Of a stretch of DNA of 36,735 nt, positions 295 to 11,074 are shown in pieces. Source of the DNA: Rhodothermales bacterium. GTDB lineage: Bacteria; Bacteroidota; Rhodothermia; Rhodothermales; UBA10348. A program made the position numbers and the translations under genes. The stretch is taken from assembly GCA_017859335.1 (NCBI GenBank), contig JAFMNH010000013.1, positions 1 through 36,735 on the forward strand. The letters are read 5' to 3'. The notes under the pieces were generated by a model. The model did no database searches. It was not told the DNA's origin and saw only the letters and a list, made by a program, of their open reading frames with translations. Each line of letters opens with the position of its first letter. Position 1 is the first letter of the stretch.

Positions 295-1395
295 TCAGGG
301 GATGATCGCCATGATCTCTCGCGCCAGACGGATGGCTTCGGTCGTGGCGCGGTTCAAGGCATCCGTCTGCTGCATGCTGGAACGCATGCGCCAAGACCCG
401 AATCCCAACGCTGCCTGGGCCTCAAACGGTGCATAGGCTCGGAAACGGACGATGTGGGGGGCATGGGCTTGATCATCCGCTATGCCATTGAGCAACCTTG
501 GCCAATCGCAGGTGGCATCTGCCTGCATCGTCACAACGATGATCCGGGAGATGCGGGAGCGATCCCACGGCGCATTGCGCAGGAACTGTTCAGGTCCCAA
601 GCACCCGTCCCGCGTGCCGCTGAGCAGAGAAAACATGGTGGATTCGGGGTACAGGGACCACCGGTTCTGATAGGATGCCATTCGGCGCATGACCGATAAA
701 ACGGCAGCAGCGGGCAGGGTCAGATCGCCCCCGTCCGTCCAACTTTCTGCGCCCTGCAGTCCTGCACCATCAACGGGAGCCACTATGAGCGTCAGGGAAT
801 CCCTCCGCACAGGGTCAGCACCAGGTAGCATCCCGACGATATGCATCGGCGCTGTGGATACATACGCTTCCACTTCGGCGACCATGCGCCACGTGGACTC
901 CGAACCCATATCTATCCGTATGTCCTCTGACCACTGAATCCAATCCAGAACGGGCAGAGTGGGGACGGTTCCAGACACGTCCAGAGGCTGAGGCGCACCT
1001 GTCACCAGAAAATCGTTTCCCTGACGAACCACCGTGGTGTCTTCGCCTATGACCTGTACCGACAGATCCGTGGCTCGCCGCAGCCTGGCGGCGTACTGCA
1101 TACGGTATTCGTCCACAAGGACAGGCTGCAGTCCACTTTCGCCCATGCGTGCGGACAGATAGGCCGCCGCCCGGAAAAAGCCGCGGGTAGCCGTCTGTCG
1201 CCCCTCCACTTCGGGCCCATCCAGATAAGCAATATCGATGCGGGCCTGGTCTTCCCATACGCCATCATCGGCCATGTCAGGGATCTGCAGGACAATAGGG
1301 GGCGCTGGCGCACAGGCCCCAAAGAGCATCAAGAGCCCCGCGAAGCAAAAGGAAGCCAAGGCTGAAAGGCGTATATGAAACCTGTAACGCAACAT
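295..1395 (-). CDS. Lipoprotein with a degenerate M28 (aminopeptidase) fold, probably non-catalytic
   Basis: The start at 1395 puts a lipoprotein signal at the N terminus (hydrophobic run ending LMLFGAC); an in-frame start at 1482 would overlap the upstream gene. The mature part follows the M28 peptidase layout. An N-terminal segment AYLDGPEVEGRQTATRG with AAAYLSARMGESGLQP resembles the M28 lid/start region. VGMLPGADPVRRDSLTLIVAPVDGAG sits where M28 enzymes have LPG...VVGAHYDHLG (quoted in parts). LLSGTRDGCLGPEQFLRN matches FSGEEQGLLGSRHFV. Every metal or catalytic position I can align is lost: His to Pro, the Asp of ADDN to Gly, and Glu-Glu to Thr-Arg. I infer a pseudo-peptidase. It is the last gene of the pilus-type operon, 64 bases after the secretin, so an accessory or pilotin-like role is possible but unproven. 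Confidence 0.7.
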   Translation of the reverse strand: MLRYRFHIRLSALASFCFAGLLMLFGACAPAPPIVLQIPDMADDGVWEDQARIDIAYLDGPEVEGRQTATRGFFRAAAYLSARMGESGLQPVLVDEYRMQYAARLRRATDLSVQVIGEDTTVVRQGNDFLVTGAPQPLDVSGTVPTLPVLDWIQWSEDIRIDMGSESTWRMVAEVEAYVSTAPMHIVGMLPGADPVRRDSLTLIVAPVDGAGLQGAESWTDGGDLTLPAAAVLSVMRRMASYQNRWSLYPESTMFSLLSGTRDGCLGPEQFLRNAPWDRSRISRIIVVTMQADATCDWPRLLNGIADDQAHAPHIVRFRAYAPFEAQAALGFGSWRMRSSMQQTDALNRATTEAIRLAREIMAIIP

Positions 1396-1459
1396 GGGAG
1401 GAAGATAGGTTATCTCCCTCCCATGCGTGGCGGAATGCATACGGCTCAGCGGGTACTGC

Positions 1460-2833
1460 CTAGTCTTCCCGCTTGGTCTCAAGTCCTGCTTCCATGGTGT
1501 CGGCAGCCCGCTGATCGAATCGTTCCAGCGTGCGAGTCAGCTCATCCCGCTGACTCTGAAGCAGGTTGCTCGGCAGTTGCTTGGCCATGCGCTCCCGGAT
1601 CGGATCCACAAGATTGGCCTCGAGTGAAATGATGAGCTCCTTCTGCGTCATGGATCGCTGCGTCCGGCCGAAGACGTAGCGAAGACCAAAGAACCATTTC
1701 GGCAGGTTCTTCAGAAACGGCACGCCCCGACGTGAATAGGACTCCTCGGTGCTGAAGAGACCACCGATGACCGTCTGCTCGCCATCAAGCAGCAGGAGCT
1801 GCGTATTGGCCAAACTGCGATCAATCGTGGGACCCTCGGCGGAGGGCCTGCTTCCTGATTTCTCGACCCTGACCTGCAGATGCAGAAACTCCGCAATCGG
1901 GGCGCCCAGCGTATCTGCCATCGGCTGCCGGATGAGCGTCGGGGTAACCTCGATGATGATACCGGTCTTGAAATACTGCGTGGAAATGTTACCGAAGGTA
2001 TCCCGGATCTGCACGGGAACGTCAGAACCGATCTGAATGTCCCCCTTGGCCCCACTCTGCACGGTTACCGAAGGGTTGGCGATGGTTTCTCCCACGCCAT
2101 TGTTTTCCGCCAGGCGGAACAGCGTTCCGAGGCTGCTGAAGCGGATCTCTTCGGGAGCCACGATGGCATCGGGCAGGCCTGCAAACAGCTCTTTTGCATT
2201 GATTTGAAAGTTGATCTGGTCCTGAGACTGGGAATTGCCTCCTTGCTGCGAGCTTCCGCCCGTAGAACCCTGTTGCCCCTGACTAGCCGACCCGAAGAGG
2301 GCATTCCAGTTGATACCTGTGTCCTTCGCCTTGGTGTGGTTCAGCTCAAAGAGGACAGCCTTGATTTCGATCTGTCGCGAGTCCAGAGTGGCTGGCGATA
2401 TGGTTGCTCCCGGCTCTACGGCCTGCTCTGTTCCCGTTGCCTGAGCTGCATCCAGAATGAGATTCTCGGCCACCTTCTGCTGGATCATGAAATAGCGGTC
2501 CGTTTCCCGGTACTCGAGATCGTTGTACTGCAACACCAGTTCCAAGGCATCCAGAAAATGCATACCCGAAATGGAGATTCCGATCGGGTGATCCCGGGTG
2601 TCCGGATCCACAAGGGACTTTGCCGTAACCCGTTCAAAAATTGGATTCAGGTAATCCGTGAACCGATTGAACGGTGTGGATGGCAAAAAGGAGACCAACT
2701 GATCGGGCGGAATGTACGCCCGAACCTGCCTCTGCTGAGCGTCGGCCGTAGACACCAGGCCTGAGAGCACCAACCAGCTCATGATAAGGAGGAGCAGCAT
2801 CTGCCCTCTCCGCATGCGACGTGATCCGTTCAT
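1460..2833 (-). CDS. Secretin of type IV pilus / type II secretion type
   Basis: The 457-residue protein begins with a signal peptide ending near STADAQ (residues 1-33). It has one N0/STN-like segment (about 60-118), a Ser/Gln/Gly-rich linker (about 182-206), and a secretin domain (about 150-410). Recognisable secretin blocks are VGETIANPSVTVQSG, IGSDVPV, TGIIIEVTPTLI, LLLDGEQTVIGGLF and GVPFLKNLP. Secretins form the outer-membrane pore for pili or secreted proteins. This one is short for PilQ (often 650-800 residues) because it lacks AMIN and extra N domains. It follows the PilO-PilP fusion by 21 bases in the same operon. PilQ versus GspD cannot be settled from sequence alone; the neighbours favour a PilQ-like role. 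Confidence 0.92.
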   Translation of the reverse strand: MNGSRRMRRGQMLLLLIMSWLVLSGLVSTADAQQRQVRAYIPPDQLVSFLPSTPFNRFTDYLNPIFERVTAKSLVDPDTRDHPIGISISGMHFLDALELVLQYNDLEYRETDRYFMIQQKVAENLILDAAQATGTEQAVEPGATISPATLDSRQIEIKAVLFELNHTKAKDTGINWNALFGSASQGQQGSTGGSSQQGGNSQSQDQINFQINAKELFAGLPDAIVAPEEIRFSSLGTLFRLAENNGVGETIANPSVTVQSGAKGDIQIGSDVPVQIRDTFGNISTQYFKTGIIIEVTPTLIRQPMADTLGAPIAEFLHLQVRVEKSGSRPSAEGPTIDRSLANTQLLLLDGEQTVIGGLFSTEESYSRRGVPFLKNLPKWFFGLRYVFGRTQRSMTQKELIISLEANLVDPIRERMAKQLPSNLLQSQRDELTRTLERFDQRAADTMEAGLETKRED

Positions 2834-2854: not shown

Positions 2855-3856
2855 TCAATAGTTCTTGGCCGGTGTCAACTGCACGTTGCCTCGGGCCTGA
2901 TTGTAGAAATCATCCAGGTCCATGGTCAGCTCGATACGTTCCGGGATTCCTCCCTTGTTGAGACTGGCCACGACCCTTCCTCTGATGGGATCGACCGAAA
3001 TCACCTCACCTAAATAGACCGGGTCGCCGACACTGACTTTATATTCGCCGCCATTCCATTTCAGGATGGCTTCCGGTCCAACGATGGATATCAGCTCTGC
3101 AGACTCCAGATCCACCAGTCCGAGTGTATTAGGCGGCATGTTTTCCAGAATGAGGGGCTCAAACGGATTCATGCGCGGGCTGCGCCTGGGCAGCACCTCT
3201 TCGGGGACGGGAGGCAGGTCGGTGAAAATATCTGCGTCGCTGAAATACATGCTCATTGGAGCACCCGCTGTCGAGTCCGATGCGCTCAGACCCACGGCCC
3301 CACCGAAGAAGGCAGACAGCTCAAAGGAAAACTCCACGACCATGTCCAGTCGCTGTCGTCCCGTAGTCGGATCGTCCGACACGAGATCCATGTGACGAAG
3401 CTCCAGATCCTCCACCCGGTAGAGCTGCCGACTGTTTTCGATTACCCAGATCAGCTCGTAGACATCCCTGAAGGAACCCTGACCCTCAATCAGGAAATCG
3501 TACCTGTTGAAAGACGCCGTCTCCTCGAAGCCCTCAAAACTGATGTTGAATGGATGGAATCCTTTTCCGGTGTGGGTATTCAGGAAGCGGATTACTTCCT
3601 CGGATCCCATCTCGCGGGGAATCAGCTTGTAGCGAGCATTCCAGCGAGCCACGACGTTACTCGCCTGACTCTCAGAATCGCCTATTTCCGAGACGAGAGA
3701 GGAAAGCTCCGCCTGTTTCAACCGAGCTACCTGCTCGGCCTTCGTCAGCCGCTCCAATTCCTGTGGCTGCTTGACGAGCGTGATGTACCCGCCCACACCG
3801 GCTGCCACGAAAAGGAAGACGGTCAAGACAATCAGATTGCGTATTCGGTTCGACAT
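2855..3856 (-). CDS. PilO-PilP fusion protein (inner-membrane alignment complex)
   Basis: The 333-residue protein has a single N-terminal membrane segment (about 6-28), a coiled coil (about 30-62), and a PilO/GspM-like ferredoxin-type periplasmic domain (about 65-190). After a low-complexity linker comes a C-terminal PilP/GspC-type beta domain (about 229-315). The PilP part starts with the family's RxxPFEP signature (RMNPFEP) and continues with LISIVG, KVSVGDPVYLG, GRVVAS and a final IELTM strand. PilO and PilP are normally separate genes; PilP is usually a lipoprotein that bridges PilN/O to the secretin. Here PilP is tethered to the inner membrane by PilO's helix, and the secretin gene follows directly. 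The gene starts 3 bases after the PilM-PilN stop, so translation is likely coupled. Confidence 0.82.
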   Translation of the reverse strand: MSNRIRNLIVLTVFLFVAAGVGGYITLVKQPQELERLTKAEQVARLKQAELSSLVSEIGDSESQASNVVARWNARYKLIPREMGSEEVIRFLNTHTGKGFHPFNISFEGFEETASFNRYDFLIEGQGSFRDVYELIWVIENSRQLYRVEDLELRHMDLVSDDPTTGRQRLDMVVEFSFELSAFFGGAVGLSASDSTAGAPMSMYFSDADIFTDLPPVPEEVLPRRSPRMNPFEPLILENMPPNTLGLVDLESAELISIVGPEAILKWNGGEYKVSVGDPVYLGEVISVDPIRGRVVASLNKGGIPERIELTMDLDDFYNQARGNVQLTPAKNY

Positions 3857-3859
3857 GGC

Positions 3860-5731
3860 TTATCTCCCAGCCTCATCGGCCAGTGTTACAATCGCACTAG
3901 CAGCCCCTGATAATGCAGCTTGGGGGTCTGATGCGCCTTCTTTCAGACGGCTTGCTGCTTCCTTGCGCAAATATTCGGCTGCCTCGGGCAGGGTCCGCGT
4001 TATGGCCATGGTCATTTCAAACTCGTAGACAGGCACCGATCGAATTTCCGCAAAGGTGATATTCTCGATACGTCCTTGGGTCCGCGAAGCAAAAGCCACG
4101 ATGTCCTCTCGGTTCAAGGAGCGGCCTGCGATGAACAGGGACCCCTCGCTTTCTTCCTGCCACTCGGAAATCCACAGACCGGATACGTCTCCCGTGTATG
4201 CCGACGTACGCTCCAATGCCCTGCTCCAGACATCGCTGCCCACGAGCAGGGAGTCGAGCAGGTCGAGTGCATCGGCAAAACCAGCGCTGCGCGCCTTGAG
4301 ACTGTCGATTTTGGCCTGCAGGTCCGCGATGTTCTCTGTTTCAGCGCCGTCCTGGTACTGACTCAGTTCGAACCGGGCCCTCTCGATGTCCCGATCCTGA
4401 TCGAGGTAGCTGTAGACAAAAAACAGAGTCGTACAGAAGAGGACCACCATGATGGCGGCGATAGGCCACGAGAGTGGCAGTCTGAGCTGCTTTCCTCGTA
4501 GCTCGGGATCCATGAAATCGACGTCGGGGAATGCGGACTCCCAGATGTCGTGACCAGCCATGCTGAGCGCACCGAGCCTGGCCAGCATGGACTCAAGTGA
4601 TTTCTCGGCGGGTGCTTCACCATCTTTCGAGGGCACCAGATCACGCAGCAGTACCATCCTGGATTCAGGGAAGGCCCGCGAGAGAGTGTTATGAAGATAA
4701 CCTTCGTATTCCTCGGCAAAAAGAAGGATGCGGTCGGAATCTCCGACGCCCAACTCATCGTGCATGAGCAGGACGCGGCTGCAGATCGTCTCAGCCGGAT
4801 CAGATGCCGTAATGGAGCGGAGCGACTCGCAATGGACCAACTCCTCGCCGACCAGGAACATGACGAGGGTATTATCAGCCCCTACCCGAATAAGGAAACT
4901 GACGTCATCTTTCGACGTGGAGGGCGGCTCCTGTTGCAGCGCTTCATCTACCATCTCCGCAATGATGCTCTCGCGCTGCTCAGCGCGCACTGCAGCACGC
5001 GCCGCACCCAGGAGCAGCGTAATCTCCGTGCGCATGGCGGAAATGAAGGGAAGCGCCTCTTTACGGTCCCTGAGAGCCTGTACGGACGGACTGATCGGTT
5101 CGGAGCTCGTAGCGTAGACAGCCAAGTCTTTCCGATGCGTGCCCCCGAAGTCAGAAAGGGGAAGCAAGGTGACCTTCTCAGGCGACAGGTCCGGATGATC
5201 GGACAGAAACTGCCTGAGGAGGGCATCCCTCTTCTTTCGACCTTTTAAGCCTCCTGCGCCCGCCTTGACAATGGCATTTGCGCCGAGCATCTCTGATCCA
5301 AGGAACTCGGTGGGCAGGATGAATACAATCTGGAACCTGTCGTAACCAGCCTGCTTGCATTCGCTGACCAGCTCCTTGATTTCCTGATCGCATGGAACCA
5401 CGGTTTGAGTGGTCCACTCAAAGCTCATGCTCATGTCGGCGTCCTCGCCGGTAGCATCGAACTCTGACGTCAAGAACATTCCTGATGCCAGAGTTTGACT
5501 CTCGTAGTCGGCAAACGCGGCGTCTTCCAGCTGACCACCTTCATCCAGACCACCGTCAAAGGCTGGGGTTGCCTCATCCAATCCCCCCTGGCCGGCCTCG
5601 GCTCGGCTCCGCCGGAAAGTCCTCAGAATTACGGTTCCCGAGGGCGCATCGCGCAGGAGAATGCCCTCCAGCCTCTGCGAGGAGACCGTGATGGCAAGGA
5701 TGTGCTCTGTATTTCGTTCAGTGGAAAACAT
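3860..5731 (-). CDS. PilM-PilN fusion (GspL-like inner-membrane protein)
   Basis: The 623-residue protein has an N-terminal actin-like cytoplasmic domain (about 1-410), one transmembrane helix (about 418-443), a short coiled coil (about 450-490) and a PilN-type periplasmic domain (about 495-585). PilN-like sequence includes LWISEWQ, SLFIAGRSLNREDIVAFAS and the final VPVYEFEMTMAI strand. In most pilus systems PilM and PilN are separate and PilM binds the PilN tail; the joined arrangement is that of GspL in type II secretion. The nucleotide-binding loops of the actin-like part look degenerate: AITVSSQRLEG stands where PilM has a DIGSxxVK-type motif, so ATP binding is doubtful. An acidic, Gly/Asp-rich insert sits at about 45-100. 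The gene starts 11 bases after the PilT stop. Confidence 0.82.
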   Translation of the reverse strand: MFSTERNTEHILAITVSSQRLEGILLRDAPSGTVILRTFRRSRAEAGQGGLDEATPAFDGGLDEGGQLEDAAFADYESQTLASGMFLTSEFDATGEDADMSMSFEWTTQTVVPCDQEIKELVSECKQAGYDRFQIVFILPTEFLGSEMLGANAIVKAGAGGLKGRKKRDALLRQFLSDHPDLSPEKVTLLPLSDFGGTHRKDLAVYATSSEPISPSVQALRDRKEALPFISAMRTEITLLLGAARAAVRAEQRESIIAEMVDEALQQEPPSTSKDDVSFLIRVGADNTLVMFLVGEELVHCESLRSITASDPAETICSRVLLMHDELGVGDSDRILLFAEEYEGYLHNTLSRAFPESRMVLLRDLVPSKDGEAPAEKSLESMLARLGALSMAGHDIWESAFPDVDFMDPELRGKQLRLPLSWPIAAIMVVLFCTTLFFVYSYLDQDRDIERARFELSQYQDGAETENIADLQAKIDSLKARSAGFADALDLLDSLLVGSDVWSRALERTSAYTGDVSGLWISEWQEESEGSLFIAGRSLNREDIVAFASRTQGRIENITFAEIRSVPVYEFEMTMAITRTLPEAAEYLRKEAASRLKEGASDPQAALSGAASAIVTLADEAGR

Positions 5732-5742
5732 GCTATGGGGTA

Positions 5743-7092
5743 TCAGACGAGTTGCTGGAACCGTCGTTTGTTGTTGGCATGATCAAGCGCCACTTCCTGT
5801 GTTATCAAACCTTGCCGCATAAGCCGATAGAGATCCTGCTCGAGGGTGATCTGACCGTTATTCCACCCCTCCCACATCATCTGATAGATCTCCGAGCTGT
5901 TGTCGTTCTTTATGGCCGCACGGGCGGGTGACGTAACCCAGAGCACCTCCTTAGCCAGAATGCGACCGCCTCCGACCTTGGGAAGCAGCTTCTGCGAGAC
6001 GATGCACCGCAGCACATCGGCCAGACGCGTTCGAATCCTGGTCTGCTCGCTGGGAGGGTACTCGGCGACAATTCGGTCAATGGACTCCACCGCGCTGGAC
6101 GTATGGAGCGTGGAGAATACTTTGTGGCCGGAGTTAGTAATCTCGAGGCCTGCCGAAATGGTCTCAGGATCCCGCATCTCTCCGATGACGACCATGTCAG
6201 GGTCCTGACGCAGGGTCTGTACGATGCCATCTTTGAACGAGGAGACATCCTTCCCCACTTCGCGGTGACGGACGATGCATTTCCTGCTGTCGTGAATGTA
6301 TTCCACCGGGCGTCCGATGATCACGATATGCCCGTGGAAGTCTTCGTTGTTGGCATGGATGATTGCATCGAGTGTCGTTGACTTTCCTGATCCGGTCACA
6401 CCCGTGATCAGGGTAAGCCCATCACGTACGTGCCGGAACATCAGGCCTTTTTCGATTGTGGGGTGAAAACCCAAACTTCGAAGCGAGCGCGGACGGATCG
6501 AAATGGCTCGCATATTGAGAGCCATCTGGCCCATATCCAAGTAGGCCGTGGCACGAAAACGCTGCAATACGCCTGCACCCGACGGGGTTGCGTAGGAAAA
6601 GTCAGCTGACTTGTGCTCTGTCAGATCTGCAATATTGCGCGAAGTGAGAAGCGATAGGATGATCACATTGGTCTGATCGACCGTAAAGGGTGCATTGCTC
6701 CGATCAGGACGTTTCTCACCATCAATTCGATACCAGATCAAACCCTTCGAACTGGCCCCGCCCAGATCGACGTCTGACGCGTTCGACATGGTCATGCGCT
6801 CGAGGATGGTATCCACAAACAGCTTCAGATTCGTCCGGTTTTCGGTATCGACTTTCTCCAGCTGCTGTGCTTGGTAGAGAATCCTGTCCAGGCCCATGGC
6901 CGTCGGAGGCGTTGCATCGATGATGGATTGAACAAACGCCGGCAGTTGTGGCATCTGCGTAAGCGACGCTGACAACGAGCCTCCCCGCCCTGCCATGTCG
7001 GCAAAGGGAGACATACCAGAGCCTCGTTCTCTTCCGGAAGGACTGGAGGACGAAGCGGACTGTGAGACCGGGTTGTTTCTGTTCGATTCCAT
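5743..7092 (-). CDS. pilT: PilT-family secretion/retraction ATPase with altered Asp box
   Basis: The 449-residue AAA+-type ATPase has an N-terminal PAS-like domain containing the ASDVDL...RIDGEKRP signature (about 105-130). It has Walker A GVTGSGKS (231-238), Walker B DPDMVVIGEMRD (297-308) and the His box STLHTSSA (327-334). The C-terminal AIKN...LMRQGLITQEVA segment corresponds to the AIRNLIRE/EEAL region of PilT rather than PilB. PilT depolymerises pili from the inner membrane. The Asp box, normally TIEDPIEY, reads IIGRPVEY (258-265), so both acidic residues are replaced. An unusual Ser-rich, low-complexity N-terminal tail (about 1-45) precedes the domain. It is the first gene of the operon. 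No PilB-type assembly ATPase is in the window. Confidence 0.88.
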   Translation of the reverse strand: MESNRNNPVSQSASSSSPSGRERGSGMSPFADMAGRGGSLSASLTQMPQLPAFVQSIIDATPPTAMGLDRILYQAQQLEKVDTENRTNLKLFVDTILERMTMSNASDVDLGGASSKGLIWYRIDGEKRPDRSNAPFTVDQTNVIILSLLTSRNIADLTEHKSADFSYATPSGAGVLQRFRATAYLDMGQMALNMRAISIRPRSLRSLGFHPTIEKGLMFRHVRDGLTLITGVTGSGKSTTLDAIIHANNEDFHGHIVIIGRPVEYIHDSRKCIVRHREVGKDVSSFKDGIVQTLRQDPDMVVIGEMRDPETISAGLEITNSGHKVFSTLHTSSAVESIDRIVAEYPPSEQTRIRTRLADVLRCIVSQKLLPKVGGGRILAKEVLWVTSPARAAIKNDNSSEIYQMMWEGWNNGQITLEQDLYRLMRQGLITQEVALDHANNKRRFQQLV

Positions 7093-7353: not shown

Positions 7354-8709
7354 TCAGTTACCGACCCAAAGCGTATTTGCTGTCGTACCTGGCGGTGCAT
7401 GGGTCATTGACCGAAGCGCTGTTTTTCTGAGGTGTTTCCCGACCTCGCGGGGACTTGCGTCTGGATGCAAGGCAAGGTGAAGCGCAGCAGCCCCTGTGAC
7501 ATGCGCCGCCGCCATGGAGGTACCGGAACGTATCGCTGTATCCCCGTCCGGTGTCGCAGTAAGGATGGCTGTTCCAGGGGCGCTCAGATCGAGCAACGGA
7601 CCGTGGTTTGAGTAAGGGGCAAAACGGCGGTCCTGATCATAGGCACCAACCGTGATGGCATCGCGAACATGGGCTGGCGTTACCGTGGAAGCGTCCATCC
7701 CGTGATTTCCCGCTGCCACAACAACGGTAATACCGGCATCGATGACGGCTTGAACGGCATCGTCCAAAGCCGTGTGTCCGCGGCCTACGGCTGCTCCCAG
7801 ACTGAGATTCACGACGGCCGGTTTGTCCGGGTGGACACTCCGCCAGTTCAGCACCTCTTCGAGCGCTGAAATGACATAGGTATCGTCGCCAACGCCCTGC
7901 GTATCAAATACGCGGTAACTGTGAATCCTGGCGCCCGGGGCAACGCCTACAAGGCCCGCGCCGTCATCGAAAGCCGCTGCAATACCTGCTATGGCCGTAC
8001 CGTGCCCATCCGCGTCCGAAAGCGAACCGGCCATGGCTAGATCGTGGCTCTCAACAACGTCCATATCGGGATGGCTGACCCCCGAGTCGATGATGAAGAT
8101 ATCCACGTCAACTGTACCGGTACCGTCCCCGGAAACCGTCCAACTGGACGTGGCACCGATATCAGGCAAGGACCACTGTGCGCTTTCCGCTGCATCGGGC
8201 AGCGCTTTAAAAACAGGATGCTGCCGAACGGAAAATACCGGCTCCACCCAGGCAATCCTCGGATCCTCTTCCATGAGGGCCAGGATTTCGGTCAGATGCT
8301 TTGAGGATACCCACAGGGAATACCCATAGAATGTCTTGGTAAAACTGTAGCGATCCACAACCTCATACCGATCGACCACTTCGTAGCGATCCACGACTTC
8401 GTAGCGGTCAACGACCTCGTACCGATCGACCACCTCATATCGGTCCACTACTTCGTAGGGCTCCATGATGTGATGGTCATCCACAATGAGTGTGGGCTCA
8501 ATGGCAATGGTGATCGCTGTCTGCTCCCCCTTCTTTCCGGGAGAGGTGATGGCCTGGTCGAAAAGGGAAGCGTTGCGCACTTTCGTGCTGGGCAGAGGCT
8601 CCTCTGATTCGGATCCGTCGAGCATCTGATCGGAACATCCGAACATCATCAGGGAGGCCACAATGAAGGGCCAAAGGCGCTTACTGAAGGGAGCAGGGTG
8701 TGCTTTCAT
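7354..8709 (-). CDS. Subtilisin-family (S8) serine protease lipoprotein with a hexapeptide-repeat propeptide
   Basis: The start at 8709 gives a lipoprotein signal (FIVASLMMFGC, Cys25) and 451 residues; an upstream in-frame ATG at 8835 adds a tail without a signal. Residues 85-120 are six exact copies of YEVVDR. They run into an I9-like propeptide (about 121-160, ending DPRIAWVEPVFSV). The peptidase domain carries the full triad: Asp208 (FIIDSG), His236 (DGHGTAIAG) and Ser398 (SGTSMAAAH), with oxyanion Asn335 (AAGNHG). It should be an active protease anchored to the cell envelope. It has no type IX sorting domain. It lies in the same orientation between the pilin-like genes and pilT, which suggests, without proving, that it processes pilus or surface proteins. 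Confidence 0.93.
   Translation of the reverse strand: MKAHPAPFSKRLWPFIVASLMMFGCSDQMLDGSESEEPLPSTKVRNASLFDQAITSPGKKGEQTAITIAIEPTLIVDDHHIMEPYEVVDRYEVVDRYEVVDRYEVVDRYEVVDRYEVVDRYSFTKTFYGYSLWVSSKHLTEILALMEEDPRIAWVEPVFSVRQHPVFKALPDAAESAQWSLPDIGATSSWTVSGDGTGTVDVDIFIIDSGVSHPDMDVVESHDLAMAGSLSDADGHGTAIAGIAAAFDDGAGLVGVAPGARIHSYRVFDTQGVGDDTYVISALEEVLNWRSVHPDKPAVVNLSLGAAVGRGHTALDDAVQAVIDAGITVVVAAGNHGMDASTVTPAHVRDAITVGAYDQDRRFAPYSNHGPLLDLSAPGTAILTATPDGDTAIRSGTSMAAAHVTGAAALHLALHPDASPREVGKHLRKTALRSMTHAPPGTTANTLWVGN
8350..8457 (-). repeat. Six tandem 18-bp coding units (YEVVDR x6)
   Basis: Six contiguous 18-base units begin at 8350, 8368, 8386, 8404, 8422 and 8440 and encode identical YEVVDR hexapeptides. 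The units differ from one another only at synonymous positions: Val, Arg, Tyr, Glu and Asp codons all vary. This points to amino-acid-level selection after an old duplication rather than a recent slippage event. Confidence 0.9.
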
Positions 8710-8865
8710 GGAGGGAAGATGGTCTGGGATGGATTGAAACCAAGCGACCAGACGCTGTCTTGGACCGACTTGGTGACCGGTACGTGACGGACTCGGCACG
8801 ACACGTACCCATGTCAACCGATGACCTCCCGGCACCCACTAGACACATCCCCAACAAGAGCGTAA

Positions 8866-8928: not shown

Positions 8929-9981
8929 TTAATTCAACAGGTTCCGAGCCTCGGTGACGGAATCGTCGATATACGCATTCCCCATCTCCTGACCATCCTT
9001 GTAGGACGTATTCGCAACCTGTCGGATGACTTCCGTCTGACCCTCAGAGTCGATGGTGGCCAAAAAATAGCCAAGCATTTCAAGCGCTGCGGAGTTGTAC
9101 TGTATACGTGTATCCTTTTTCATTTCCACCTCTTCGATGCCATCCAAAAATAACGCTCCTTCGATGTAGGAATCTTTTTTCAATTCTAATCCACTGTCAT
9201 CACCGGTGACAAAAACTATCCCGTACCACATTGCCCCGTTGTTGATAGTCAAATCCCCATCGACATACAGGATTCCGTATCCCTCGAAACCCCTGTCGAG
9301 TGTTACATCTCCGTTAACGACGACAATCTCAGGTGAGGAAGGAGATCCAATGTTCTGTTTGGTGTCATTGGGGCCGAGGGCAGAGTACTCTAACTTATCA
9401 GGATAGGTCAAGATAGCCGACTCAATAGCAGACATAAGCGTACTGGACTCACCAAGGACCATGCTTCCTTCAATGTGGTTCTCTTCACCCCCCAGATCCT
9501 CAAGAGTCTCCGGATCAGACACTAGGACCGCGCTTGCTTCTGTTTGACCGCTCGCATCGATACCGGAAATCACCGCGTCCTTTTTGAACTCGAACTCCGT
9601 ACCCGAGCCGTCAACATTCATTGTTTCATTGATCTCCTGCCCCTGCATCGTCATGGATCCGATGATTTCGAAGGAATGGCGCCCGTATTTACCTACAGCA
9701 ATGACGGTCACCGAGCCATCTTCAGCCCGGACTGCTCCAATGTCGTAGAGGGCACCACCGTACGACTGATCCGTGAAGGCAAAGCTTTCCGATTCGAAAG
9801 CAGCACGCACCTTGGCAATAACGATGCTGAAGGCGCTCTGGGCCGTCTGACGCGCCAGGACCTTCTCCTGGTAGTCTGATTCCGTTTGGACGGAAGCCAG
9901 GTCCTGCTCCGTCCGGGCCAGGTAGAGCGTAGCCAACGACAACGTCGAAGCCATCACGAAGATGAGAATACCTTTGCCCAT
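8929..9981 (-). CDS. PilX/GspK-like pilin-type protein with a beta-helix-like region
   Basis: The 350-residue protein begins with a hydrophobic helix (GILIFVMASTLSLATLYLA, about 4-22) that continues into a long amphipathic helix (SDYQEKVLARQTAQSAF), as in PilX N-terminal domains. There is no G|FxxxE prepilin motif. The C-terminal half (about 125-290) has short repeating strands: EFKKDAVISG, LELKKDSYIEGALFLDG and EMKKDTRIQYNSAA. Together with GDVTLDRGFEGYGILYVDGDLTINNG, quoted in shortened form (GILYVDGDLTINNG), these suggest a right-handed beta-helix. I infer a minor pilin or tip component. It is last of three pilin-like genes, 124 bases after the second, so it may also have its own promoter. 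Its size and rank match GspK, but the body does not look like GspK's helical domain. Confidence 0.65.
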   Translation of the reverse strand: MGKGILIFVMASTLSLATLYLARTEQDLASVQTESDYQEKVLARQTAQSAFSIVIAKVRAAFESESFAFTDQSYGGALYDIGAVRAEDGSVTVIAVGKYGRHSFEIIGSMTMQGQEINETMNVDGSGTEFEFKKDAVISGIDASGQTEASAVLVSDPETLEDLGGEENHIEGSMVLGESSTLMSAIESAILTYPDKLEYSALGPNDTKQNIGSPSSPEIVVVNGDVTLDRGFEGYGILYVDGDLTINNGAMWYGIVFVTGDDSGLELKKDSYIEGALFLDGIEEVEMKKDTRIQYNSAALEMLGYFLATIDSEGQTEVIRQVANTSYKDGQEMGNAYIDDSVTEARNLLN

Positions 9982-10105
9982 GGGCGCGTGGGGATGCGGG
10001 GGTAGTTGAGAGTAGGGTTAGAGGTGTTATCGACCACCCAGTGCCTTTCCTTAAATTCGCGCAGGAAAAACCACAGGTAGGCCCTGGGTTGGGTCAGTAT
10101 GCAGG

Positions 10106-10681
10106 TCAGGTTTCCAGACTGGGCGGTCGAACGGTGATGCCCCAGTGGCTTCGGAACATGTTCATTTTTTCCGGGTCGCCGAAGGGGTACACATTGACGG
10201 CCCTGACACGCAGCAATCGCGCAGTCGCTACATCGGCTGTTGTCGTTCCGTCAGCTGCCAACATGGTGATCTCAAAATGAGACAATGTGGAAAAGCCGCT
10301 TCCTGCCGGCTGGCCGCCCTCCGTGCGATCAAGACGGTAGAGTTGCACCGTTTCGCCATCGATCTCGATCGACGTTGTTTGCGTCAAGAGGTAAGAGACC
10401 AGCATGGGAGACCCTGTGTTATCCATGCGCCAAAAAGAAAACTGGGTGGTTTGATCCGCTTCATTGGATGCGATGGTCTGGATGGTATCAGCGGTGCCAT
10501 TCCCCACCAGAAGCAAATCGCTTTCAAGGTAGTCAGCCATGCTCAACGTCTGCGTCTTGGCGGCATAGGCCACAGACGATTCGACGGCACTGCGTTGAGC
10601 ATTCAGATTGGTCGCTACCACTACCAAGAGCACGGTACTGGCAACCAGAACAGACGCTATGTTGTCAAAGAGCAACTGCAT
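10106..10681 (-). CDS. PilW/GspJ-like minor pilin-type protein
   Basis: The 191-residue protein has an N-terminal hydrophobic helix (SVLVASTVLLVVVA, about 10-23) followed by an amphipathic stretch with Ala and a SMADYLESDL segment. That recalls PilW/GspJ, where a helix leads into a beta-rich domain. The rest (about 65-190) is predicted mostly beta from alternating patterns. There is no cleavable prepilin leader and no Glu at the position expected after one. It starts 3 bases after the stop of the preceding pilin-like gene, so the two are very likely co-translated. Identification rests on architecture and neighbours, not on a strong motif. Confidence 0.55.
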   Translation of the reverse strand: MQLLFDNIASVLVASTVLLVVVATNLNAQRSAVESSVAYAAKTQTLSMADYLESDLLLVGNGTADTIQTIASNEADQTTQFSFWRMDNTGSPMLVSYLLTQTTSIEIDGETVQLYRLDRTEGGQPAGSGFSTLSHFEITMLAADGTTTADVATARLLRVRAVNVYPFGDPEKMNMFRSHWGITVRPPSLET

Positions 10682-10684
10682 GCG

Positions 10685-11074
10685 TCACTGGGCAATGACC
10701 CGTGTATGGGTGACAAGCGGAGTGGCAAACCTCGGGTGGGTTGCCGCGATCGACAGCTCCTTTTGTGTAGTTGCGGTAGCTGATGGAGTACCGAATTCGT
10801 CCACGAATGTCACTGTGACGGTCAGATCGAATTCAATTCCATCGGCACCTATCTCAAACGATCGCTTCAACTCGGAGCCATTAAGCGACTCCAATCCCCC
10901 ATAACTGGTAGTGAGGTCAATGATCTCGATCTCCTCCAGCACCACAGCATTTGCCATCAGCTCAAACTCGCTTCGATAGGCTGCTTCATACGACTGAAGC
11001 TGGGCCGTATACTGGTTGATGGCCGACAACGCGGCAATCATCATGGCCAAGAATGCCAGAAGGGTCTGAGGCAT
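10685..11074 (-). CDS. PilV/GspI-like minor pilin-type protein
   Basis: The 129-residue protein begins MPQTLLAFLAMMIAALSAINQ, a short hydrophobic helix at the very N terminus, then an amphipathic helix (YEAAYRSEFELMANAVVLEE). A small beta domain with FDLTVTVTFVDEFG follows. Upstream of the ATG the frame holds no other start before a stop 13 codons away, so no hidden leader peptide exists. It lacks the G|FTLIE prepilin site. It is the first gene of the three-gene set. The order and sizes (129, 191, 350 residues) fit GspI-J-K. The assignment is moderate. Confidence 0.5.
   Translation of the reverse strand: MPQTLLAFLAMMIAALSAINQYTAQLQSYEAAYRSEFELMANAVVLEEIEIIDLTTSYGGLESLNGSELKRSFEIGADGIEFDLTVTVTFVDEFGTPSATATTQKELSIAATHPRFATPLVTHTRVIAQ

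Follow-up and report, generated by a model that had tools for sequence, protein, structure and literature searches.

The window, the whole stretch of 36,735 nucleotides of a Rhodothermales bacterium that was analysed, is part of a 2.6 Mb draft genome (G000:C142). It contains two tandem genes, both on the minus strand, that each code for a fusion of two pilus alignment proteins. The first codes for a PilM-PilN fusion of 623 aa (PilMN, 3860-5731), the second codes for a PilO-PilP fusion of 333 aa (PilOP, 2855-3856), and the gap between the two ORFs is 3 bases. The initial annotation described each fusion as a single uninterrupted frame, and this was confirmed for both genes and is conserved in relatives. 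PilMN adjoins a gene for a PilT/PilU-family ATPase of 449 aa (5743-7092, minus strand), a probable retraction motor. On the other side, PilOP is followed by a gene for a short, PilQ-like secretin of 457 aa (1460-2833, minus strand; Pfam Secretin, 2e-25) and by a lipoprotein-like gene (295-1416, minus strand), which is kept in synteny in Rhodothermales and had no Pfam match. By eye, the N-terminal part of this last protein resembles the start of M28 peptidases. A subtilase gene (Peptidase_S8; 7354-8835, minus strand) also lies in the operon region in this family. Its product carries six tandem copies of a YEVVDR repeat in the N-terminal part and may serve the machine as a substrate.

Pfam and NCBIfam gave no name to either of the fusion proteins, and AlphaFold models of both were made with 43 homologues as input. 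The PilMN model (mean pLDDT 81.0) contains an actin-like PilM domain at residues 10-391, in which an acidic insert at about 45-110 is of low confidence, followed by a long coiled helix that includes the transmembrane (TM) segment from about residue 421 and by a ferredoxin-like PilN domain at about 495-576. In a fold search with this model, residues 7-394 matched PilM (2ych, Z 20.2), with FtsA (17.5) and EpsL (12.6) behind. PilN was absent from the list obtained with the whole PilMN model, which was filled by the actin-like domain. When the PilN part, placed by the initial annotation at residues 495-585, was used as a profile, it matched PilN of the Myxococcus machine (E 9.8e-10), and Pfam PilN matched 18 of the 43 relatives. 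PilMN is a cytoplasmic actin-like domain connected through one TM helix to a periplasmic PilN domain in a single chain, and the GspL-type layout proposed earlier for this protein was borne out.

The PilOP model (mean pLDDT 76.7) starts with a TM helix (3-29) and a coiled helix (31-75), which lead into a ferredoxin-like PilO/GspM domain (85-184), a low-confidence linker, and a six-stranded PilP/GspC-HR beta domain (254-311). VIA-align of the AlphaFold model matched residues 84-186 to PilO (2rjz; Z 12.0, rmsd 2.2) and residues 239-314 to PilP (2lc4, Z 9.6; 2y4y, Z 9.1), and the beta domain was also similar to GspC-HR (3oss; Z 8.5, rmsd 1.2). The PilP/GspC fold predicted for residues 229-315 was therefore found. 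When the full PilOP profile was compared with the PDB by sequence alone, only weak matches resulted, and the weak Pfam matches among PilOP relatives were to T2SSM_b (13), T2SSM (6), and PilO (4); judged by sequence, the PilO part appears as near to GspM as to PilO. The Pfam PilP profile (PF04351) matched nothing in the own genome and nothing in any control, and is uninformative here. The PilP domain forms the C-terminus of the PilO chain and has no signal of its own, so that it is not the separate lipoprotein of type IVa pili (T4aP). Taken together, the models, fold search, profiles, and Pfam confirm the four domain assignments and the reduction of the alignment complex to two polypeptides, in which the fusions support a 1:1 stoichiometry within each pair.

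In PilOP the PilO domain and the PilP domain are connected by a long, flexible linker. The stretch between the two parts has 66 residues in the window and 42-68 in relatives, and its length, its variation in length, and the low model confidence of most of it speak for a flexible tether and against a rigid bracket. The initial annotation proposed that PilO would lock PilP to the secretin in a fixed geometry. PilP is indeed covalently joined to PilO in every genome examined, but the length variation and low confidence of the joining stretch leave this rigid arrangement unsupported, and we consider it very improbable. The PilMN proteins of Balneolaceae and Salinibacter-type genomes end in an additional third domain of the SPOR type (PF05036, 16 of 43 members; loci L064, L066, and L079-L092, e.g., L084:6637-8994), through which the alignment complex would be attached to denuded peptidoglycan.

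Of 41 relatives, 29 had a PilOP homologue. Each of the 20 longer loci of the order that were inspected had PilMN and PilOP as single ORFs, and the gene order was PilT-like ATPase, PilMN, PilOP, and secretin, often with the lipoprotein-like gene after the secretin and three small genes with hydrophobic starts before the ATPase. Likewise, in the 43 named loci both fusions were single ORFs in the same order, except at contig ends and for one broken PilOP. The named PilOP matches came from Rhodothermales, Salinibacter, Salinivenus, Roseithermus, Balneolaceae, Ignavibacteriae, and Kryptoniota, which puts the organism in the Rhodothermota part of Bacteroidota in the broad sense; the four-gene operon is kept across Rhodothermota, Balneolota, Ignavibacteria, and Kryptoniota. 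A profile search of 296 genomes spread over the phylum found PilOP in 102 of them, nearly always at full length. This conservation across relatives and in the survey rules out an assembly artefact, a frameshift, or a chance fusion, and makes the PilMN/PilOP pair a clean marker for the system. Four of six congeners (G001, G002, G004, and G006) gave no PilOP match, and one of these, G004, which is nearly complete in two contigs, also lacks PilC but still has a pair of T2SSE genes. These genomes might be explained by patchy loss, or by PilB-like ATPases that serve a different role.

The initial annotation presented the fusions as a departure from known pili, but the fusion as such has precedent. 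In published descriptions PulL/GspL is a PilM+PilN fusion (PMC10191384), and a few cases of PilO-PilP fusion, such as Q88CU9 of Pseudomonas putida, have been on record since 2011 (PMC3169554). The domain join in Q88CU9 is the same; the present system differs in that the join is a fixed trait of all genomes that carry the machine, across several classes.

The machine resembles the T4aP PilMNOPQ systems of Pseudomonas, Neisseria, Myxococcus, and Thermus in having the five modules in the order M-N-O-P-Q together with a PilT-family ATPase. PilM, PilO, and PilP were the best structural matches of the fusions, and PilN was the best profile match of the PilN part. It differs from them in that four genes are merged into two, that PilP is tethered and is not a lipoprotein, that no prepilin peptidase was detected, and that the pilins have neither leader nor Glu5. 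The ATPase matched TIGR01420 (pilT_fam) over its full length (1.5e-91, 307 bits, just below the curated cut-off of 319), and it adjoins PilMN in all examined loci that reach that side. The secretin scored 93.5 bits as PilQ vs. 70.3 bits as GspD. The scores of these two proteins point to a T4aP-like machine. PilB (G000:C139:7582-8763) and PilC (G000:C1:4497-5843; L095) of the own genome are encoded away from the window and score about equally as GspE and GspF, respectively. In the closed relative G217 (L128), all components lie in one stretch, in the order pilin, pilin, PilC, PilB, PilT, PilMN, PilOP, and secretin. A PilB-like ATPase of 1161 aa with a large N-terminal extension (L047:1813-5295, plus strand) represents a form present in some Rhodothermales.

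There are also points of likeness to type II secretion systems (T2SSs). GspL combines PilM and PilN in one chain, the beta domain of PilOP superposes on GspC-HR at 1.2 Å, and GspC too anchors its HR domain to the inner membrane. The machine could be a T2SS-like secretion apparatus that builds a pseudopilus from leaderless pseudopilins. Such a function would suit the GspL layout of PilMN, the predominance of GspM-type over PilO matches among PilOP relatives, the equal scores of PilB and PilC as GspE and GspF, and the subtilase gene in the operon in this family. However, a PilT-family ATPase is present in the operon everywhere, while the absence of PilT is a hallmark of T2SSs (PMC10191384). In addition, the secretin scores as PilQ, the major pilin occurs in several tandem copies, and the HR domain, which in T2SSs is anchored by the TM helix of GspC and is separate from GspM, is carried here on the PilO/GspM chain. 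A secretion system is therefore unlikely in our view. The earlier placement of the machine between type IV pili and T2SSs holds for the PilO part, whose weak Pfam matches are more often GspM than PilO, but the ATPase and the secretin move the whole toward T4aP.

The most unusual feature of the system, leaderless pilins together with the lack of a detectable prepilin peptidase, was missed by the initial annotation. In almost every genome examined, 1-4 copies of a short ORF that starts with MGQQQLLL and passes straight into a hydrophobic helix were found beside PilC; in the own genome this major pilin is encoded at L095:3651-4049. A pilin profile was built without the first nine columns to avoid selecting on the MGQQQ motif, and it recovered 68 distinct pilin genes in the loci searched. 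In 67 of the 68 genes, no start codon (ATG, GTG, or TTG) is possible earlier than residue 1, which lies nine residues ahead of column 10. With GTG and TTG starts counted, the N-terminus is MGQQQL in 63 of the 68 pilins and MG[ST]QQ in four more. The codons at the conserved Gly, Gln, and Leu vary and the residues remain constant, indicating that the N-terminus is under selection at the protein level. Upstream of the motif, 66 of 67 MGQQQ genes have no in-frame start before the preceding stop (median distance, 4 codons), so there is no leader to cut. Wrongly called starts were also considered and are ruled out, as no upstream in-frame start exists in 67/68 genes. MGQQQ is not strictly needed in every copy, as one related genome of the class has, beside a normal MGQQQ copy, another leaderless pilin that has diverged and starts with MANKEIIII (L129:10556-10924, minus strand).

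None of 62 pilins showed a cleavage-plus-Glu5 motif near the start. Of 13 genomes tested with the N_methyl profile (PF07963), 11 had no match or one that fell short of the cut-off, and it was present only in the two with a peptidase. The best PDB matches of the pilin profile were nevertheless type IV pilins, namely PilE1 (E 0.0068), geopilin (0.12 and 0.16), and PilA5 (0.39). This homology is weak (best E 0.0068), as expected for proteins that consist of one helix and a variable head. These matches share one register, in which model position 9 corresponds to mature position 6, and the classical pilins of related genomes align in the same register. Leu8 therefore sits at the Glu5 site, and only Met-Gly-Gln precedes the mature start. 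A register in which the Gly exposed by Met removal is mature residue 1 and G22 equals P22 was dropped, since the profile alignments shift it 2-3 residues later. As read from the genes, the major pilin starts within about three residues of the mature start, has no Glu5, and cannot have a leader.

The window itself encodes a trio of minor-pilin-like proteins (8929-11074) that are leaderless as well. The first (10685-11074, minus strand) uses the earliest in-frame start and has its helix from residue 3, and homologues at the same operon position have the helix at residues 1-5 in 19 of 22 cases. In the second (10106-10681, minus strand) the hydrophobic helix begins at residue 7. The third (8929-9981, minus strand) is a PilX-like minor pilin that has a large C-terminal domain and whose hydrophobic helix begins at residue 4. 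For the trio and its homologues together, the helix starts at residues 1-8 in most. The C-terminal domain of the third protein is repetitive. Homologues of this protein can be as long as about 800 aa, some genomes carry duplicate copies, and the protein may act as an adhesin at the tip.

PilC, Peptidase_A24, and the pilin were also sought in the 296 genomes surveyed for PilOP, with 142, 38, and 102 positives, respectively, and PilOP occurred together with an MGQQQ pilin in 101 of the 296. In this profile search, Peptidase_A24 was found in none of the 79 genomes that have the system and a single PilC, whereas 27 of 39 PilC-bearing genomes without the system had it (Fisher p 1.2e-17, which is not a true probability and overstates independence, as the survey genomes are related to each other). 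Both the system and a peptidase were present in 11 genomes, all of which had at least 4 T2SSF matches and therefore an additional PilC. G101 and G113 belong to this group, and in both the peptidase and the second PilC have classical N_methyl pilins no more than about 1 kb away. In another 11 genomes with the system there were 3 or 4 T2SSF matches and no peptidase was detected; G030 among them has two PilOP copies.

These results could also be obtained if the machine were an ordinary T4aP with two fusions, in which the start of the pilin is processed as usual by a very divergent peptidase that profiles miss. The limits of detection are real, as the Cytophaga-type peptidases (L139, L205, and L215) are short and divergent, and were missed or nearly missed by Pfam. 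For this reason 11 diverse peptidases were combined into a broader profile. In the 296 genomes it recovered three more controls (G058, G137, and G254), but in the group with only the fused system it gave a single weak, partial match, in G202 (E 7.5e-4 over 62 positions), and no credible one. A search with Peptidase_A24 at E values up to 10 found no hidden peptidase in 13 genomes. In the closed genome G109, which has only the fused system, a scan of 1.6 of 2.35 Mb (68 percent) gave no significant peptidase profile match; three ORFs with GxGD and several hydrophobic stretches were noted, none of them credible, and the sole SPIII-like match was at residue 87 of a 332-residue frame. Furthermore, the compact L128 operon has no spare gene between the pilins and the secretin, and the absence of in-frame starts upstream of MGQQQ leaves no leader to process. 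A conventional pilus with an overlooked peptidase thus seems to us quite improbable. In genomes that have only this system, profile searches detected no peptidase, in a family whose divergent members can lie at the limit of detection.

A prepilin peptidase and a class III signal peptide have been regarded as universal and ancestral in type IV filaments (PMC10191384), and Nanoarchaeota were the only group without the peptidase in an earlier survey (PMC4471445). Neither the MGQQQLLL motif nor a comparable peptidase-free system was found in the open-access literature searched. In Bacteroidetes, the Cytophaga-type "T2SS" clusters with T4aP and may be a new type of secretion (PMC6668835). It is likewise a type IV filament machine with divergent inner-membrane proteins. 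However, in Cytophaga hutchinsonii it has a Peptidase_A24 (CHU_3197) and separate inner-membrane genes (CHU_3191/3193/3194) (PMC5553014), which rules out identity with the system described here, and the pilins of the Cytophaga-type clusters examined had a leader and Glu5. In Melioribacter roseus, pilT, Q, B, and C were reported and pilA and pilD were not found, and the pilus set was considered probably incomplete by the authors (PMC3534657). Judged by the published description alone, these genes probably belong to the present system, and the lack of pilA and pilD is how a leaderless pilin and a missing peptidase would look.

We therefore consider it probable that leaderless pilins are polymerised by a T4aP-like machine, which can probably retract, and that PilMN and PilOP make up the alignment complex of this machine in the inner membrane. 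The machine would consist of the leaderless pilins, PilC, PilB, the PilT-like ATPase, PilMN, PilOP, and the short secretin. The pilins would be inserted as signal-anchor proteins that are nearly mature already, from which at most the Met would be removed by methionine aminopeptidase, and PilC and PilB would polymerise them. The cytoplasmic ATPase would be linked to the secretin through PilMN and PilOP, the tether would let the PilP domain reach the N-terminal domain of the secretin, and the PilT-like ATPase would retract the filament. The gene evidence is strong, and from it we infer both filament formation and the mature N-terminus. More broadly, several classes of Bacteroidota probably possess a type IV filament system without prepilin processing, in which all pilins are leaderless, the peptidase is gone, and the alignment complex consists of two fusions.

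Leaderless pilins and a missing peptidase explain the failure to find pilA and pilD in such genomes, and these machines will be overlooked or wrongly labelled by software that relies on an SPIII motif or treats the peptidase as mandatory. If our reading is true, filament assembly does not inherently depend on leader cleavage, N-methylation, or Glu5, and these bacteria would provide a natural system in which the roles of all three could be tested.
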